DNA of 64,000 bases from Mariniflexile litorale (GCF_031128465.2 NZ_CP155618.1:1311501-1375500), one strand, 5' to 3'; numbered from the stretch's first letter, positions 1,623-9,599 are shown. A program made the numbers and translations. Notes: generated by a model not told the origin, from the letters alone.

Positions 1623-2750
1623 TTATCTCTTAATTTTTTGAGTAAACTTAGATGCTATATCTACAAGATATTTATAGCTATTTCGCATTGCATCTTCTAG
1701 GTTTTTAGCTTTATTCATGATGGCATCGGTATAATAAACACCAAAATGGCTAGCTTCATCAATAGAAAGTGATACACTTCCACAAAAAGCAGCCACTGGA
1801 ATATTATATTTTTTAGCAGATGCTATAACGCCATCAATGGTTTTACCTGAAAGTGTTTGAGAATCGAGTTTGCCTTCACCTGTAATAATAAAATCAGCAT
1901 GTTTAATTTTAGTATCAAAATCCACTAAACCTTTGACTAAGTCAATACCTGATTTCAATTCAGCATTAAAAAAAACCAAAGTTCCCGCTCCCATACCCCC
2001 TGCAGCGCCGGCTCCTTTTATATTTTGAACATCTCTATGAAATTGCTTTTTAAAAACAGCTGCTATATTTTTTAGTCCATTATCCAAGTCTTGAACCTCA
2101 ATTTCAGATGCTCCTTTTTGCGATCCATAAACATAAGCTGCACCATTTTTCCCATACAAAGGATTTGTTACATCACAGGCAACTTTAAAATCAATAGATT
2201 TTAAAGCGTCTATAACATCACGGCAATTAATCACTCTAATCTGTGATAAATTTTTTCCTACGGGTTCTAACTCTTTTCCGTTTTCATCTTCAAATTTATA
2301 ACCTAAAGCGGTAGCCATACCTATACCACAATCGTTTGTAGCACTACCACCAATACCTAAAATAATGGTTTTAGCACCTTTATTTATAGCATCTAAAATA
2401 AGTTCTCCCGTTCCTAAAGTCGTGGTGTTAAAACAATTCTGTTCTTCTTTATTTAATAGATACATGCCCGAAGCTTCTGCCATTTCAATAAATGCAGTGC
2501 TTGTTTTATCCATGTATAAATAGGAAGCTTCTATTTTTCTAAAAAGCGGATCATTAACTTTTATAGTAATCCGTTTTCCTTTTAAATGGTATTCTAAAAT
2601 TTCAATAGTACCATCACCTCCATCTGCCAGTGGTAATTTAACAATTTCAACATTTGGTAATATTTTTGTTATGCCTTCTTCAACTGCATTACAAAACTGC
2701 AATCCAGTTAAGGATCCTTTAAATTTATCGGGGGCAATAACAATTTTCAT
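1623..2750 (-). CDS. Glycerate kinase (GarK/GlxK family)
   Basis: Phosphorylates D-glycerate with ATP, giving phosphoglycerate (2-phosphoglycerate in most members of this family) for glycolysis. The 375-residue length is normal. Visible family motifs are PDKFKGSL (7-14), LADGGDGT (41-48), TLGTGELI (111-118), GGSATND (134-140), CDVTNPLYG (192-200), GAGAAGGMGAG (246-256) and GEGKLDSQTLSGK (291-303). It is the last gene of a minus-strand run with the SSS symporter (16 bp away) and the GH63 hydrolase, which suggests the run degrades a glycerate-containing glycoside. The symbol is left blank because GarK and GlxK cannot be told apart here. Confidence 0.93.
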   Translation of the reverse strand: MKIVIAPDKFKGSLTGLQFCNAVEEGITKILPNVEIVKLPLADGGDGTIEILEYHLKGKRITIKVNDPLFRKIEASYLYMDKTSTAFIEMAEASGMYLLNKEEQNCFNTTTLGTGELILDAINKGAKTIILGIGGSATNDCGIGMATALGYKFEDENGKELEPVGKNLSQIRVINCRDVIDALKSIDFKVACDVTNPLYGKNGAAYVYGSQKGASEIEVQDLDNGLKNIAAVFKKQFHRDVQNIKGAGAAGGMGAGTLVFFNAELKSGIDLVKGLVDFDTKIKHADFIITGEGKLDSQTLSGKTIDGVIASAKKYNIPVAAFCGSVSLSIDEASHFGVYYTDAIMNKAKNLEDAMRNSYKYLVDIASKFTQKIKR

Positions 2751-2766
2751 TTTAAATGATTTAAAA

Positions 2767-4413
2767 TTAACCGAAAATAATTGGTATAAAATAACTAAAT
2801 ATCAAAATGGCTATAAAAAATACTACCAAAATATAGACCTCTTTAATCATGAAATCTTCTTTTTTAATAGCTACATTGAAATTAGAAATACTTTTCACCT
2901 GAACGTGTTTAGTAAAAACGCTTACTACATAAGCCACAACTAATGAAATAACAACACCTGTTACATTAAGCCATATCCAAAAAATATGGATTCCCAAATC
3001 TATATTGAACACTTGTTGCATGGTTTTGGACAAAATAAGATTAATAACTACCGCTGAAATAATACCTGCATTCATACCTATATGATTGACTTTTTTTGAA
3101 AAGAAGGCTAGAATAAACGTAACCAATACTGGGCCGTAAAACACAGAACTTACAGCGTTTATTATTTCAATAACCGCACTTTTACTACCCCCAAACAGAA
3201 ATGCACTGGCTATACAAACAACACCCCAAAACACTACAGATGCTTTTGAAATAAACATATATTTTTTATTAGACAACTTGACTTTTCCTCTGTTAAAAAA
3301 GTCTTCAACGGTTACAGCAGATAAAGAATTTACAGTTGAGCTTAACGATGACATGGCTGCTGAAAGAATACCAACCATTAAAATACCAATAAGTCCATGA
3401 GGTAAATATTTCATGATAAAAACGGGTAACATTAAATCTATTTTCATACCTGTTTTAGCAAACTCTTCAGGAAAATATTTTTGGGTAGTTAAGGCAATTT
3501 CATTTAAAAAATCGGGAGCTACAGTTACTAACCCTCCAATAATTAACCCCATTGTACAGTAAATTAAAACAACAGGAAAACGCAACAATCCGTTCGCTAA
3601 TAACAATTGGCGAATGGTTTTTTCATTTTTAGCAGATAACATCCGTTGTGCTTGAGTTTGGTCGCACCCATAATAGGAAGCATATAGAAATAACCCACCC
3701 AAAAGCATGGGCAATATGCCGTATTCATTCCCTTCACCAATTCCTAAATTATAGTCTATAACTTTTAATCGTTCCGAATCAAAACCTTGTGGTAACCCTC
3801 CATGTTCTTGCAACAAATTCCACCCATAATACAAGCAAATAATTAACCCTGCAAAAAGAATAATCATTTGAAAGGCATCTCCCCAAACAACCGCTTTCAT
3901 ACCACCTTGCCAAGAATAAACAATGGTTATAACAGAAATAATTAAAATGGTGTAAACAAAATCAATATCTAAAACCGCTTGCAAAATAATAGCAATGGCA
4001 TATACCATAACGCCTGTTGCCAAAGCACGACTTATTTGAAACACAATACTTAAAATTAGTCGGGTAGAAGCGCTAAAACGTTTTTCAACAAACTCATAAA
4101 TACTTACTACACCCGATTTAAATAATGGTGGAATAATTACAATCATTATAAAAATCATCGCTAACGGAACAGCAAACTCGAAGGTGAGCCATTTCATACC
4201 GCCACCTAATTTTAGTCCCACAAAGGCAGGTGCCGATATAAAACTGATTGCCGATAATTGCGTAGCCATAGTTGAAAGGCTCAACGGAAACCAACTCATA
4301 CTTTTTCCTCCTAAAAAGTAATCTTTGGAATCTTTGTTTTCTTTAAAGAAAAATCCCATCCCTAAAAAGAAAGCGATGTAAAGAATAACGATACTATAAT
4401 CTAGCCAATTCAT
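2767..4413 (-). CDS. Sodium:solute symporter (SSS family)
   Basis: Inner-membrane secondary transporter coupling sodium entry to solute uptake, with a LeuT-like fold. The 548 residues contain about 13-14 hydrophobic segments, beginning WLDYSIVILYIAFFLGMGF. Family features include the FLGGKSMSWFPLSLS region near 35-50 and GILSAAMSSLSSTVNSLSA near 350-365, the SSS signature region. It starts 19 bp after the GH63 gene stop and ends 16 bp before the glycerate kinase start, so the three are probably co-transcribed. I infer that it imports the glycosylglycerate, or a product of it, from the periplasm; the substrate is not determined by sequence alone. Confidence 0.92.
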   Translation of the reverse strand: MNWLDYSIVILYIAFFLGMGFFFKENKDSKDYFLGGKSMSWFPLSLSTMATQLSAISFISAPAFVGLKLGGGMKWLTFEFAVPLAMIFIMIVIIPPLFKSGVVSIYEFVEKRFSASTRLILSIVFQISRALATGVMVYAIAIILQAVLDIDFVYTILIISVITIVYSWQGGMKAVVWGDAFQMIILFAGLIICLYYGWNLLQEHGGLPQGFDSERLKVIDYNLGIGEGNEYGILPMLLGGLFLYASYYGCDQTQAQRMLSAKNEKTIRQLLLANGLLRFPVVLIYCTMGLIIGGLVTVAPDFLNEIALTTQKYFPEEFAKTGMKIDLMLPVFIMKYLPHGLIGILMVGILSAAMSSLSSTVNSLSAVTVEDFFNRGKVKLSNKKYMFISKASVVFWGVVCIASAFLFGGSKSAVIEIINAVSSVFYGPVLVTFILAFFSKKVNHIGMNAGIISAVVINLILSKTMQQVFNIDLGIHIFWIWLNVTGVVISLVVAYVVSVFTKHVQVKSISNFNVAIKKEDFMIKEVYILVVFFIAILIFSYFIPIIFG

Positions 4414-4432
4414 GTTTATACGTGTTAGTTAA

Positions 4433-5740
4433 TTAGTTGTCTTGCAACAGGTCTATTAATAATGCAGCACTCCATGAAAAATCATTGCCACCATACCCTG
4501 CAGTGCCGTTTTTGTATACTTCTTTTCGTGAATCGAAATACTCATAAAAACCTGCTTTTTCAATAATTTCAATAGTATCGGCTTTTACCCGTTTTGCAAT
4601 ATCCAAATACCCATAATTTTTTAAACCATAATAAAGAATCCAGTTTAAATTTACCCAAACAGGCCCTCTCCAATATTTTTTTGGATTAAAACGTTCACTT
4701 GTCGGATCAAAAGACGCGCATAAATATTGATTATCATTTCCGAATTTTTCCATCATAACGTTTACCAATGATACCGCTTGTTCTTTATTAGGAATGTTTG
4801 CAAACAAAGGTGAAAATGAGGACGATGAGATATACCTTAATGGTTTTTCATTTCTTAAATCATAATGAACATAAACACCTAACTCTTTATCAAACAGTTT
4901 GTCATTAAAACTTTTAATGGCTTTACCTTGCCAGTTTTGAAGCTGACTTATTTTATCGTCATGACCTCCAATAAGTTGGTATAAATCTATTAAACTTTGA
5001 TTGGATTTAATAAGCATCGAATTGAAAAGCGGATCTTGTACTAAAAAAGGCGATAATTCTGCTATTTTAGCATCCTTATAATGATGCTCTTTTGCAATAT
5101 CGATGATGTATAAATAATGGTCGTACTCTCTATTAGATGGTCGTTGTGATGCATCAACATGAGTGGTATCTCTACGTTCAAATGTATATTTTGGCGGATT
5201 CATAGTTTGCCAAATATCATCCCAAATAGGAGAATTATCAGTACCCGATTCCCAATTATGGTATATATAGGCAAGCCCTTCGTTTTTTGGATCTCTGTTG
5301 TTATAGAAATATTCATGATTAAAATAAACTTTATCAATCACGCTTTCTATAAACTTTAATGTTGCTTTTTTATCGGTACTTATTCTATACATATCTTGCA
5401 ATACAAATCCAGTAACAGGAGGCTGTGTCATTCCTGTAGATTTGTGTTTTTTAGAAGACTGTGAACTTAAATCTGAACGATGAAAATCGGGTCCTGGAAA
5501 ATACGTATCCGTATCTGTATGAAATATGATATGCGGTAGAAACCCATTGTTCCATTGAGAATCCAATAAGGTTTCAATTTCTTTTTCGGCTTTTGGCATA
5601 TCAAAATGTGCAAAACCTATGGCTATGAAACCTGAATCCCAAAACCATTGAAACGGATATAAATTGGCGCACGGCACACTAAAACCATCTTTCCAATTGT
5701 TATTTAATACCTCTATAGCTTTATTTTGTAAATCTTTCAT
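4433..5740 (-). CDS. GH63-type mannosylglycerate/glucosylglycerate hydrolase
   Basis: Predicted (alpha/alpha)6-barrel inverting glycosidase related to bacterial mannosylglycerate hydrolase (MgH) and glucosylglycerate hydrolase (GgH), which split the solute into hexose and D-glycerate. At 435 residues it has the compact size of that subgroup. Visible motifs: substrate-pocket YPFQWFWDSGF (28-38), the loop MTQPPV (104-109), WESGTDNSP (163-171) with D168 as likely general acid, YWRGPVWVNLNW (356-367), FYEYFD (398-403) with E400 as likely general base, and GGNDFSWSAA (417-426). There is no signal peptide, so it should act in the cytoplasm after import. Its neighbour glycerate kinase fits this substrate class. 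Trehalase-like or another GH63 activity remains possible. Confidence 0.8.
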   Translation of the reverse strand: MKDLQNKAIEVLNNNWKDGFSVPCANLYPFQWFWDSGFIAIGFAHFDMPKAEKEIETLLDSQWNNGFLPHIIFHTDTDTYFPGPDFHRSDLSSQSSKKHKSTGMTQPPVTGFVLQDMYRISTDKKATLKFIESVIDKVYFNHEYFYNNRDPKNEGLAYIYHNWESGTDNSPIWDDIWQTMNPPKYTFERRDTTHVDASQRPSNREYDHYLYIIDIAKEHHYKDAKIAELSPFLVQDPLFNSMLIKSNQSLIDLYQLIGGHDDKISQLQNWQGKAIKSFNDKLFDKELGVYVHYDLRNEKPLRYISSSSFSPLFANIPNKEQAVSLVNVMMEKFGNDNQYLCASFDPTSERFNPKKYWRGPVWVNLNWILYYGLKNYGYLDIAKRVKADTIEIIEKAGFYEYFDSRKEVYKNGTAGYGGNDFSWSAALLIDLLQDN

Positions 5741-5751
5741 ATTATATCTTT

Positions 5752-5794
5752 AAAAAAACCCACTACCTACCCCCTAAATAGCCAGTAATGGGTT
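5752..5794 (-). terminator. Intrinsic terminator/attenuator between receptor and hydrolase genes
   Basis: On the minus strand AACCCATTAC (from 5794) pairs with GTAGTGGGTT (to 5757), ten pairs with one wobble, followed by a run of seven T. It lies after the TonB-dependent receptor stop (5811) and before the hydrolase start (5740). Partial read-through here would give more receptor than cytoplasmic enzyme mRNA. Confidence 0.7.
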
Positions 5795-5810
5795 AACAAC
5801 CTAAATAAAC

Positions 5811-8444
5811 TTAAAAATTAAATGTAGCGTTCAAAAACACTCGGGTTGGCAAAATAGGACGACCAACAAAATATTCTTCTTCTGTTTGGCTATTGTTAAG
5901 TCTTGGAGACCCTTCAGTAATACCTTCGGAATTAAATAAATTATATACTTGTGCACCTAAACGCACTTTTTCTCCATTTTCGCCAACAGGGAACGTATAT
6001 CCACAATTCATATTAACAATACTTAAAGCATCTAACTCAATACTATTCGAATCGTTGGTGAATTTTTTACCTGTGTAATTGTATACAATATTTGCATCAA
6101 ACGCAGAATTGTCGTAATCCAATCCGAAGGTTCCTAATACTTTTGGCTGTCTACCTAACTCATTACCTTCAAACGCTGGGTTGCTTTCTGATTTTGCAAT
6201 CTCATGAGCTTGATAAGTAAATGATCCTTGAAAGGCGAAGTTTTCAATAAATTTATATTTCCACGTAGTTTCTAAACCTACAGTTTTTGTATCCTGAATA
6301 TCAACTTCTTCAACAAAACCTCCTCCTGGAGCGTTAATAAATGTTACATTTCTACGATCTTTTAATGCTACACCATAGAGTGCTGCTGTACCAGAAAAAC
6401 TACCTTGGCCGTATTTAACACCTGCTTCAAACTGATTGATTTTTTCAGTATCATATTCATTTGGATTTCCTAATCCATCAAATTTCACGCTTCTAAGCTC
6501 TGGAAAAAAGTAGCCTCTTGAAAAGTTTCCATATAAACTTAATGCATCACTCATTTTATAAAGAGCAGCTACAGCTACTGCAAAATCATCTGCAGATACA
6601 TGACCTCTAGTCCATTTCCCATTACCCCATCTTACATTATCTAAATTAGCAATACCTGTATCATCAACTAAATAAGACTGTGAGCCTTCGCTTTCAATAT
6701 CGCCAGACGCTTTTTCATAACGTACACCAAAATCTAAATTCCAGCGATCTAACTTAATCTCATCTGTTAAGAATAAAGCAATTTTATTACTACTTATATT
6801 TTTATTTCCATATCCTGTACCTCTATTTGTAACTCCATTTATAGAATAGCCTGAAACCTCAACTAAACCTGGATTATTATTATATTCACTTAAATAATTA
6901 GTTGTTACGTTAAAATCGCCTGCTTCAGATCTGGACATAAACGTACCTAAAGTAAATGTGTGTTGATTGGACGTTTTAGTCATTTTAATATCGGCCACTA
7001 ATTCTTGTAATGGTCTATTTCTATCTAAAATTCTATTTTCAAACAATAAGGCATCAGCTGGTAATGCTTGGCCATTTAGAGAAGTAAAAGTCCCTAAAGC
7101 CAACCCTCTTGCTGCCAAATATTCAGATTGTGTTTCCACAACAGCCGCAGGAGTACCATTCGGATTTTCAAGGGTTTTCGTTCTTTCGTCAATCACGCCG
7201 CTACCATCTAAAAATAAGTTAAATTGGTGTTTGTATTTTGAGTATCTTAATTTAGCGTCCAATTTTAAATCATCAGTGAAATTGTGTTTAAAATTGGTTA
7301 AAAAATAGCCTCCTTTAGTTACAACACCATCTTCTATGGGAGATGAATACACCCCATTTGGGGTTTTATAAGAAATATCGGAAGCTGCCGAAGTTTGTAA
7401 AGTATAAATTTTTTCTCCATCATTTCCATTAGGACGATCTCTAGTCCCTCCTTTTAATGGATAAGGTAAAAAGAATTGTACATTATCATCAATAAATTGA
7501 CCAGAAAAAGTTATTGAGCCATTCTTAGTTACTTGTTTTATATTACCTCGCAACTGAAAACCTTCTGTTGGTAATCCTGATTTAACAGGACCATCATCAT
7601 ATCTGTAAAAACCAGACAGTGCATAAAACGTATTTGAGTTTTCACCTCCCAATGGACCACTTGTTAAAAATTCACCTTTATATCTTGAATTTGAAGCTAC
7701 TTCAGTTCTAATAATATTTTTTTGTTGTGCACTTCCAGTAACACTTGTATAGTTTATAATACCTGCAACCGAACCCACTCCATATAATATAGAAGAACCT
7801 CCACGAACAAACTCTAAACTTTTAATACCTAAATCGTTTCTAAAATAAACATCATGTGCCGATGAGTTAAGACCAAACGTACTCAACACAGGCATCCCAT
7901 CTATTTGTAATGGATTAAATTGATATTGTCCACCAGAAGGCATCCCTCTTACAAAAATGTTTGAGGCAACTTCACCCCCGCCACCTTCAGCAGTAATACC
8001 AGGAACACTCATCAAAATATCCGCTTGACTACTGGTATTCGTTCTCGATAATTCTTTAGCTCCAAATGACGTTATAGAAAGTGGCGTTTCTTTTTGGGAA
8101 CGCGTTGAAGATGTAGCTGTTAAAACAACTTCATCTAATGTATTTCCTCCTTCTTGCAAAACAACTTGCACCGTAATTTTTGCACCGGTAAGTAGTATCG
8201 TTTTTTGAAAAGTACTGTAACCTAAATAAGATACTTGTATTTTTTGATCACCAGTTAAATCTGAAGTAAAATTAAAATTTCCATCAAAATCAGTTGTTGC
8301 ACCAGATGTACTTCCAATAATTAAAACATTAGCACCTAAAACAGGCACTCCTGAGTTGTCTTTTACAGTACCTGTAATTTCAGTTTGCGCAAGCATTGCA
8401 GAAATGCTAAACAAACACAATAAAGTAAAAATGATTTTTTTCAT
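5811..8444 (-). CDS. TonB-dependent receptor with carboxypeptidase-regulatory N-domain
   Basis: Outer-membrane 22-strand barrel that imports a ligand with energy from TonB/ExbBD. The 877-residue protein has a signal peptide (1-19, cut after AMLA-Q), a CarboxypepD_reg-like domain (about 21-100, TGTVKDNSGVPVLGANVLI), a plug (about 110-235, with FVRGGSSILYGVGSVAGIINY) and a barrel ending in the aromatic FLNATFNF. It has no SusD partner, as expected for small ligands rather than polysaccharides. It begins a minus-strand run with the GH63 hydrolase, symporter and glycerate kinase, so the probable ligand is a glycosylglycerate; this is inference from context. Divergent lacI-type regulator 129 bp away. 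Confidence 0.9.
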   Translation of the reverse strand: MKKIIFTLLCLFSISAMLAQTEITGTVKDNSGVPVLGANVLIIGSTSGATTDFDGNFNFTSDLTGDQKIQVSYLGYSTFQKTILLTGAKITVQVVLQEGGNTLDEVVLTATSSTRSQKETPLSITSFGAKELSRTNTSSQADILMSVPGITAEGGGGEVASNIFVRGMPSGGQYQFNPLQIDGMPVLSTFGLNSSAHDVYFRNDLGIKSLEFVRGGSSILYGVGSVAGIINYTSVTGSAQQKNIIRTEVASNSRYKGEFLTSGPLGGENSNTFYALSGFYRYDDGPVKSGLPTEGFQLRGNIKQVTKNGSITFSGQFIDDNVQFFLPYPLKGGTRDRPNGNDGEKIYTLQTSAASDISYKTPNGVYSSPIEDGVVTKGGYFLTNFKHNFTDDLKLDAKLRYSKYKHQFNLFLDGSGVIDERTKTLENPNGTPAAVVETQSEYLAARGLALGTFTSLNGQALPADALLFENRILDRNRPLQELVADIKMTKTSNQHTFTLGTFMSRSEAGDFNVTTNYLSEYNNNPGLVEVSGYSINGVTNRGTGYGNKNISSNKIALFLTDEIKLDRWNLDFGVRYEKASGDIESEGSQSYLVDDTGIANLDNVRWGNGKWTRGHVSADDFAVAVAALYKMSDALSLYGNFSRGYFFPELRSVKFDGLGNPNEYDTEKINQFEAGVKYGQGSFSGTAALYGVALKDRRNVTFINAPGGGFVEEVDIQDTKTVGLETTWKYKFIENFAFQGSFTYQAHEIAKSESNPAFEGNELGRQPKVLGTFGLDYDNSAFDANIVYNYTGKKFTNDSNSIELDALSIVNMNCGYTFPVGENGEKVRLGAQVYNLFNSEGITEGSPRLNNSQTEEEYFVGRPILPTRVFLNATFNF

Positions 8445-8526
8445 TATATTTAGAATTAATTAGTTATAATGCTAAATAAGTGAGAACTATTCATAAATAT
8501 ACCATAAAAATTATCACATTTACACA

Positions 8527-8549
8527 CAAACGTTTGCGGGAACGTTTGC
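8527..8549. promoter_or_regulatory. Tandem LacI-family operator candidates
   Basis: CAAACGTTTG (8527-8536) is a perfect palindrome with the central CpG typical of LacI-family operators. A second half-degenerate copy, GGAACGTTTGC (8539-8549), has its centre 12 bp further on. Both sit in the 129-bp divergent region between the TonB-dependent receptor and the lacI-type gene, 25-47 bp upstream of the regulator ATG, so they could control both directions. Confidence 0.6.
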
Positions 8550-8573
8550 AATTCAAATTAAATATAATTATAT

Positions 8574-9599
8574 ATGAAAAAAGAGGTCACAACTTTAAAA
8601 AAACTAGCAAAAGAACTAAACCTCTCAACCTCAACCATTTCAAGAGCTTTAAATGATCACCATGATATTAGCCACGCTACTAAAGAAAGAGTAAAAAAAC
8701 TTGCAGCCGACTTAAACTACGTTCCCAATATTTTCGCCAAAGGCTTTCGAGCGCATAAAACAAATATTATAGGTGTTGTAGTTTCAAACGTTACGCATCA
8801 TTATACAACCACCATAATTCGAGGTATTCTAGAGGAAGCATCTTCCAAAGGATATAAAGTTATTATCTCAGAATCTAACAATGATGTTGCAAAACAAACT
8901 GAAATGCTTAACACCATGATACAATTTGGTGTGGATGGTATTTTGTTATCACTTTCTAAAATGACTCGCGATATAAACCATGTTCTCAAAATATTAGAAA
9001 CTATTCCACTTATATTATTTGATAAAGTTTCTAGTAAAATACCTTGTACCCAAGTAGTAATAAACGACGAGGAAGCTGCATACAACGCAGTTGAACATCT
9101 TATTAATGTAGGAAAAAAAAGAATCGCTATTATTAAGGAATCTAAATTCTCATATAATTCTGAAAAACGCTATTCGGGTTATTTAAGAGCATTAAGAGAA
9201 CACCATATACCTGTAGATGATAAAATTATTTTAAGTTGTGATGATATTAACATGGAACAAGGTAAACTACTAACAAACATACTTTTAAGTTTAAAAGAAA
9301 AACCCGATGCCATTTTTTCCATTACCGATACTGCAGCCATTGGCGTTATAAAAACACTAAAAAAATTCAACATAAAAATACCTGAAGACATAGCTATAGT
9401 TGGCTTTAGTAATAACATAAACGCCACTATTATCGAACCTCAACTCACTACTATTGACCAGCCTGGATACAGAATAGGTAAAACTGCCGTTAGTTTTTTG
9501 GTTGATGAAATAAATGCCCCAAATAACATTTTAATAAACAAAACCATCGAAATAAAAACTAACCTTATTATTAGAGAATCTACCTTTAAAATTAAGTAG
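8574..9599 (+). CDS. LacI/GalR-family transcriptional regulator
   Basis: A 341-residue regulator. The N-terminal helix-turn-helix (about 6-52) includes LAKELNLSTSTISRALN and the hinge-helix entry LNYVPN. A periplasmic-binding-protein-like sensor domain follows (about 65-340, starting IIGVVVSNVTHHY and including YNAVEHLINVGKKRIAII). It is divergent from the receptor-hydrolase-symporter-kinase run, with operator-like palindromes between, so it most likely represses that run until an inducer binds. The inducer may be the glycosylglycerate or a breakdown product. The ATG at 8574 gives the canonical HTH start. Confidence 0.93.
   Translation: MKKEVTTLKKLAKELNLSTSTISRALNDHHDISHATKERVKKLAADLNYVPNIFAKGFRAHKTNIIGVVVSNVTHHYTTTIIRGILEEASSKGYKVIISESNNDVAKQTEMLNTMIQFGVDGILLSLSKMTRDINHVLKILETIPLILFDKVSSKIPCTQVVINDEEAAYNAVEHLINVGKKRIAIIKESKFSYNSEKRYSGYLRALREHHIPVDDKIILSCDDINMEQGKLLTNILLSLKEKPDAIFSITDTAAIGVIKTLKKFNIKIPEDIAIVGFSNNINATIIEPQLTTIDQPGYRIGKTAVSFLVDEINAPNNILINKTIEIKTNLIIRESTFKIK

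Follow-up and report, generated by a model that had tools for sequence, protein, structure and literature searches.

Candidate five-gene locus for glycosylglycerate utilisation in Mariniflexile litorale and other Flavobacteriaceae

The 64,000-nucleotide stretch of Mariniflexile litorale DNA analysed here, hereafter the window, contains a five-gene locus at 1623–9599 that we interpret with considerable confidence, on sequence and predicted structure, as a catabolic operon for an external α-2-O-glycosyl-D-glycerate. Mannosylglycerate (digeneaside) is the likeliest substrate, and glucosylglycerate is probably used as well. Glycosylglycerate utilisation, as the initial annotation of this DNA had proposed with either sugar, is well supported by the pocket residues of the hydrolase, by its predicted fold and by co-occurring genes for glycerate kinase, mannose-6-phosphate isomerase (ManA), a phosphorylase and mannosyl-3-phosphoglycerate (MPG) synthase. 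Both glycosylglycerates occur as solutes in red algae, cyanobacteria and many stress-adapted microbes, and few studies have addressed their marine turnover. The locus offers a compact marker for this turnover, and its conserved candidate operator eases an induction or binding assay. The hydrolase is present in 57 of 397 sampled Flavobacteriaceae genomes (about 14%), and public records call its relatives ‘trehalase family glycosidase’.

The host genome is a single contig of 4.5 Mb, and all five open reading frames of the locus were confirmed. Four of them form an operon on the minus strand. Its first gene (5811–8444) encodes a TonB-dependent receptor of 877 amino acids with plug, barrel and CarboxypepD-regulatory domains, followed in transcription order by a GH63 hydrolase of 435 amino acids assigned to the MgH/GgH branch (4433–5740; PF22422, 4e-87), an SSS-family sodium:solute symporter of 548 amino acids (2767–4413; PF00474, 1e-37; TIGR00813 above cutoff) and a glycerate kinase of 375 amino acids (1623–2750; PF02595, E=2e-139; TIGR00045 above cutoff), with intergenic gaps of 70, 19 and 16 bp. 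Divergent from the receptor gene, on the plus strand at 8574–9599, lies the gene of a LacI-family regulator of 341 amino acids, recognised by profile matches. The domain matches thus agree with the five gene assignments of the initial annotation, the divergent LacI gene included, and the motifs that it had picked out in the hydrolase, YPFQWFWDSG, SGTDNSP (with D168) and FYEYFD (with E400), are present exactly. The receptor N-terminus resembles a signal peptide; none was seen at the N-terminus of the hydrolase, which is therefore probably cytoplasmic, and this pairing is compatible with uptake of the whole solute and its subsequent cytoplasmic hydrolysis. No SusD gene adjoins the receptor gene, as remarked earlier, and the receptor reaches 95 bits where the SusC model requires 368, which places the locus outside the SusC/SusD definition of a polysaccharide utilisation locus (PUL). 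Outside the locus, a GC-richer stretch downstream of an ftsX-like gene (1176–1280) looks repeat-like; we rejected a repeat there, the 21-bp core being single-copy in the genome.

The intergenic region between the divergent genes holds a feature that adds to the earlier description, a candidate tandem LacI operator at 8525–8551. It is a conserved double palindrome, CACAAACGTTTGCGGGAACGTTTGCAA, in which two palindromic sites are spaced 12 bp apart, 22 bp before the ATG of lacI and 80 bp before that of the receptor gene. After removal of duplicate genomes, 89 distinct intergenic regions of relatives remain, and 88 of them (94 of 95 before removal) match the operator consensus with at most eight mismatches; the best match in shuffled regions has 11. 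Because the M. litorale genome contains the full double site once, the regulator appears to act locally; half-sites on their own recur at a handful of positions, two of which fall in a region where further LacI genes lie. A divergent LacI gene together with a conserved putative operator, to which the regulator would bind, is the arrangement of a LacI-regulated catabolic operon.

Alignment and predicted fold place the hydrolase in the mannosylglycerate/glucosylglycerate hydrolase branch. Its best solved relatives in phmmer searches are the Thermus thermophilus MgH (TtMgH; E=1e-92, 40% identity) and then the mycobacterial GgH of Mycolicibacterium hassiacum (MhGgH; 3e-61, 31% identity). The alignment against these two enzymes that had been suggested as a check finds the shared pocket in place: mapped from the list in the MhGgH structure paper (PMC6608630), each of the 18 listed catalytic and substrate positions at which TtMgH and MhGgH agree carries the same amino acid in the hydrolase, namely Y28, W32, W34, D35, H70, Y80, F81, Q106, W163, G166, D168, R200, Y206, Y356, W357, W362, E400 and W423. 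In the alignment, D168 corresponds to the catalytic acid D182 of MhGgH and E400 to its base E419; both are unchanged in 149 homologue sequences, drawn from two partly overlapping sets, and the glycerate contacts Y36, W40, Y88, R216 and Y375 (MhGgH numbering) are all kept in the hydrolase. Across the 149 homologues, 15 of the 18 positions are invariant, the exceptions being H78Q (4), F89Y (11) and Q115M (2). The only substrate position at which the two known enzymes differ, Q434 in MhGgH and phenylalanine in TtMgH, is F421 in the hydrolase and phenylalanine in all 149 homologues.

The predicted fold agrees with this placement. In a Foldseek search of the PDB with an AlphaFold2 model of the hydrolase (pLDDT 84), ranks 1–20 are all TtMgH or MhGgH, with 4wvc at the top, and YgjK and trehalases rank far lower. 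Both phmmer and Foldseek rank MgH/GgH above YgjK and trehalase as relatives of the enzyme, with deep nodes of the tree weak. Neither a grouping with trehalases nor a missing pocket, which the initial annotation had named as grounds for abandoning its proposal, was found in sequence or model. In the tree, the Flavobacteriaceae form a clade separate from both characterised enzymes, and since the deep nodes are weak, the tree does not separate a mannose from a glucose reading. The hydrolase is not a clear GgH equivalog, because it scores 315 bits against the 550-bit cutoff of the NCBI model NF047898. The best two paralogues in the same genome (PF22422) lack the glycerate pocket and lie in other gene clusters. 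Those clusters look rhamnosidase-rich, or rhamnoside-directed, and pectin-type.

The five genes travel together. The closest named relatives of the hydrolase are from Mariniflexile (94 and 88% identity) and Gelidibacter (88%), all Flavobacteriaceae, and the wider search of flavobacterial genomes that had been called for finds all five genes in the same order in 66 of the 71 named loci (of 80 in total) whose flanks extend for 5.5 kb or more in both directions. The carriers include Mariniflexile, Algibacter, several species of Maribacter and four of Zobellia. Among relatives the LacI gene is divergent from the receptor gene and, in nearly all, the symporter gene follows the GH63 gene. Such conservation of content and order argues against a chance neighbourhood, and the flanking genes, common to a subset of close relatives only and otherwise different, indicate that the five genes are kept together as one unit. 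An Emticicia sequence deposited as a plasmid also carries this unit, and an alga-derived Catenovulum, a gammaproteobacterium, carries a rearranged version with a hydrolase homologue, glycerate kinase, SSS symporter, TonB receptor and an AGE-family epimerase. Some small-genome relatives have the GH63–SSS pair without kinase, receptor or LacI.

Other arrangements were seen along the way. A second clade of relatives (L081–L097; 51–58% identity) has GH63, SSS and glycerate kinase genes without LacI and an adjacent receptor; a murQ-like gene flanks it on one side, and genes for a DUF4249-like protein and a TonB-receptor-like protein on the other. In 14 of the 80 named loci (for example, L045:10305-10907), a GNAT acetyltransferase gene separates the hydrolase gene from the symporter gene; it is also present in a locus from another family (L208) and, after the hydrolase gene, on a Ruegeria plasmid (L232).

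Around the conserved hydrolase, the transporters form a mosaic. The receptors fall into two discrete types, with about 71% identity within and 49% between types and no values of 52–60% relative to the receptor of the window, and the symporters likewise form two types (75–84% identity within, 55% between). All four combinations of receptor and symporter type are found (L108–L187). On the hydrolase tree, the receptor type changes about ten times and the symporter type about eight times, fewer than with shuffled labels. One speculative explanation, which we hold to be rather doubtful, is that these swaps track a choice between mannosylglycerate and glucosylglycerate, or an escape from receptor-using phages.

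We propose that the TonB-driven receptor would move the anionic solute across the outer membrane and that the sodium symporter would bring it intact over the inner membrane. The cytoplasmic GH63 enzyme would then cleave it with inversion, D168 acting as acid and E400 as base, to give hexose and glycerate, a step that we infer from the residue-by-residue identity with solved enzymes. The glycerate kinase, assigned to its family by the matches above, would convert glycerate to phosphoglycerate for glycolysis. The hexose would be phosphorylated by an enzyme encoded elsewhere and, in the case of mannose, isomerised by ManA, also encoded elsewhere; the M. litorale genome has a ManA gene and a gene for one ROK-family protein outside the locus. 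The LacI regulator would occupy the tandem operator in the shared intergenic region and leave it in the presence of inducer. The transport specificity and the LacI inducer are putative assignments made from gene position.

Sequence alone does not fix the sugar, because MhGgH, with the same pocket, binds and cleaves both mannosylglycerate and glucosylglycerate (PMC6608630), and the present hydrolase probably accepts both as well. As the main substrate, mannosylglycerate is more likely than glucosylglycerate, favoured by two kinds of gene context. A ManA gene lies directly downstream of the operon in 14 distinct relatives' loci (16 before removal of duplicate genomes), a placement far beyond chance by a rough binomial estimate in which the related loci are not independent. 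The downstream enzyme is class I, above the NCBI cutoff in the two tested, and its presence among relatives shows no clear link to receptor or symporter type. The second is a distant homologue of the hydrolase, in another bacterial family of the phylum, which adjoins genes for MPG synthase (PF09488, 9e-157) and a HAD phosphatase. The hydrolase and MPG synthase genes of that distant relative also adjoin a gene for an RtcB ligase that contains an intein splicing domain (L212:10463-13429).

It is possible, if distinctly less probable, that an otherwise identical pathway serves mainly bacterial glucosylglycerate, from cyanobacteria or others, in place of mannosylglycerate from algae. One relative's operon carries, between the symporter and glycerate kinase genes, a GH13_18 gene with a TETN motif (L065:5619-7313), a signature that marks glucosylglycerate phosphorylase (GGaP; PMC7178133); its product is 41% identical to annotated E. 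coli YcjM, and such a gene favours glucosylglycerate in that relative. This TETN phosphorylase-type gene is present in 1 of 296 Flavobacteriales genomes and was not found in the other 295, and a clear GGaP was not found in the M. litorale genome. MhGgH prefers glucosylglycerate (PMC6608630), and in Meiothermus the hydrolase homologue is paired with a sugar phosphorylase. Against these observations stand the 14 downstream ManA genes, an enzyme needed for mannose and not for glucose, the Thermus-like phenylalanine at the position of Q434 and the MPG synthase gene beside the distant homologue, and we retain mannosylglycerate as the preferred main substrate.

Intracellular recycling of a self-made solute, in the manner of the mycobacterial GgH, in place of use of external food, would account for the MPG synthase gene that adjoins the distant homologue and has a precedent in MhGgH, which helps a producing organism to recover from nitrogen starvation (PMC6608630). 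We nevertheless judge it improbable for M. litorale: MPG synthase was not found in its genome, so the substrate is probably external, and the operon has an outer-membrane receptor, a symporter and a LacI regulator. Least probable by our estimate, and well down the scale, is another small α-glycoside (glucosylglycerol, floridoside or trehalose), a substrate that the trehalase label of public records and a Trehalase Pfam match of 5e-16 might suggest, but the complete glycerate-binding set is kept, the operon includes a glycerate kinase and MhGgH, with the same pocket, cleaves neither glucosylglycerol nor glucosylglycolate (PMC6608630). Trehalase itself was rejected on pocket residues, fold and remoteness in sequence.

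Two characterised hydrolases frame the comparison with known systems. The T. thermophilus HB8 MgH (GH63, EC 3.2.1.170; PDB 2z07, 4wva-4wvc) shares the fold, all catalytic and substrate residues and, at the loop-E position, the phenylalanine; unlike it, the candidate described here, known from its sequence, sits in an operon with TonB receptor, SSS symporter and glycerate kinase genes. MhGgH has the same pocket and differs at Q434, in serving starvation recovery and in that the present hydrolase lies below the GgH equivalog cutoff. GGaP clusters also include a glycerate kinase that handles released glycerate (PMC7178133), as proposed here, but they use phosphorolysis and the present operon hydrolysis; the relative described above has a GGaP-type gene in its operon as well.

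The nearest counterparts come from the same bacterial family and share the proposed substrate. Predicted digeneaside-degradation genes of Zobellia galactanivorans are attributed to Barbeyron 2016, and the four Zobellia species that carry the five-gene locus are others of that genus. Homologues of the Z. galactanivorans genes are reported in Maribacter dokdonensis (PMC8072126), and digeneaside is among the substrates predicted for PULs in North Sea Flavobacteriia (PMC6298971). The predicted digeneaside genes likely correspond gene for gene to the five-gene locus, and the suggestion in the initial annotation that the set had not been described as a unit is probably wrong. The locus is therefore best regarded as a well-supported case of a known system, to which the present analysis adds the comparison of pocket residues, the extent of co-occurrence, the candidate operator, evidence from isomerase and phosphorylase genes that bears on the sugar, and the mosaic of transporter types.
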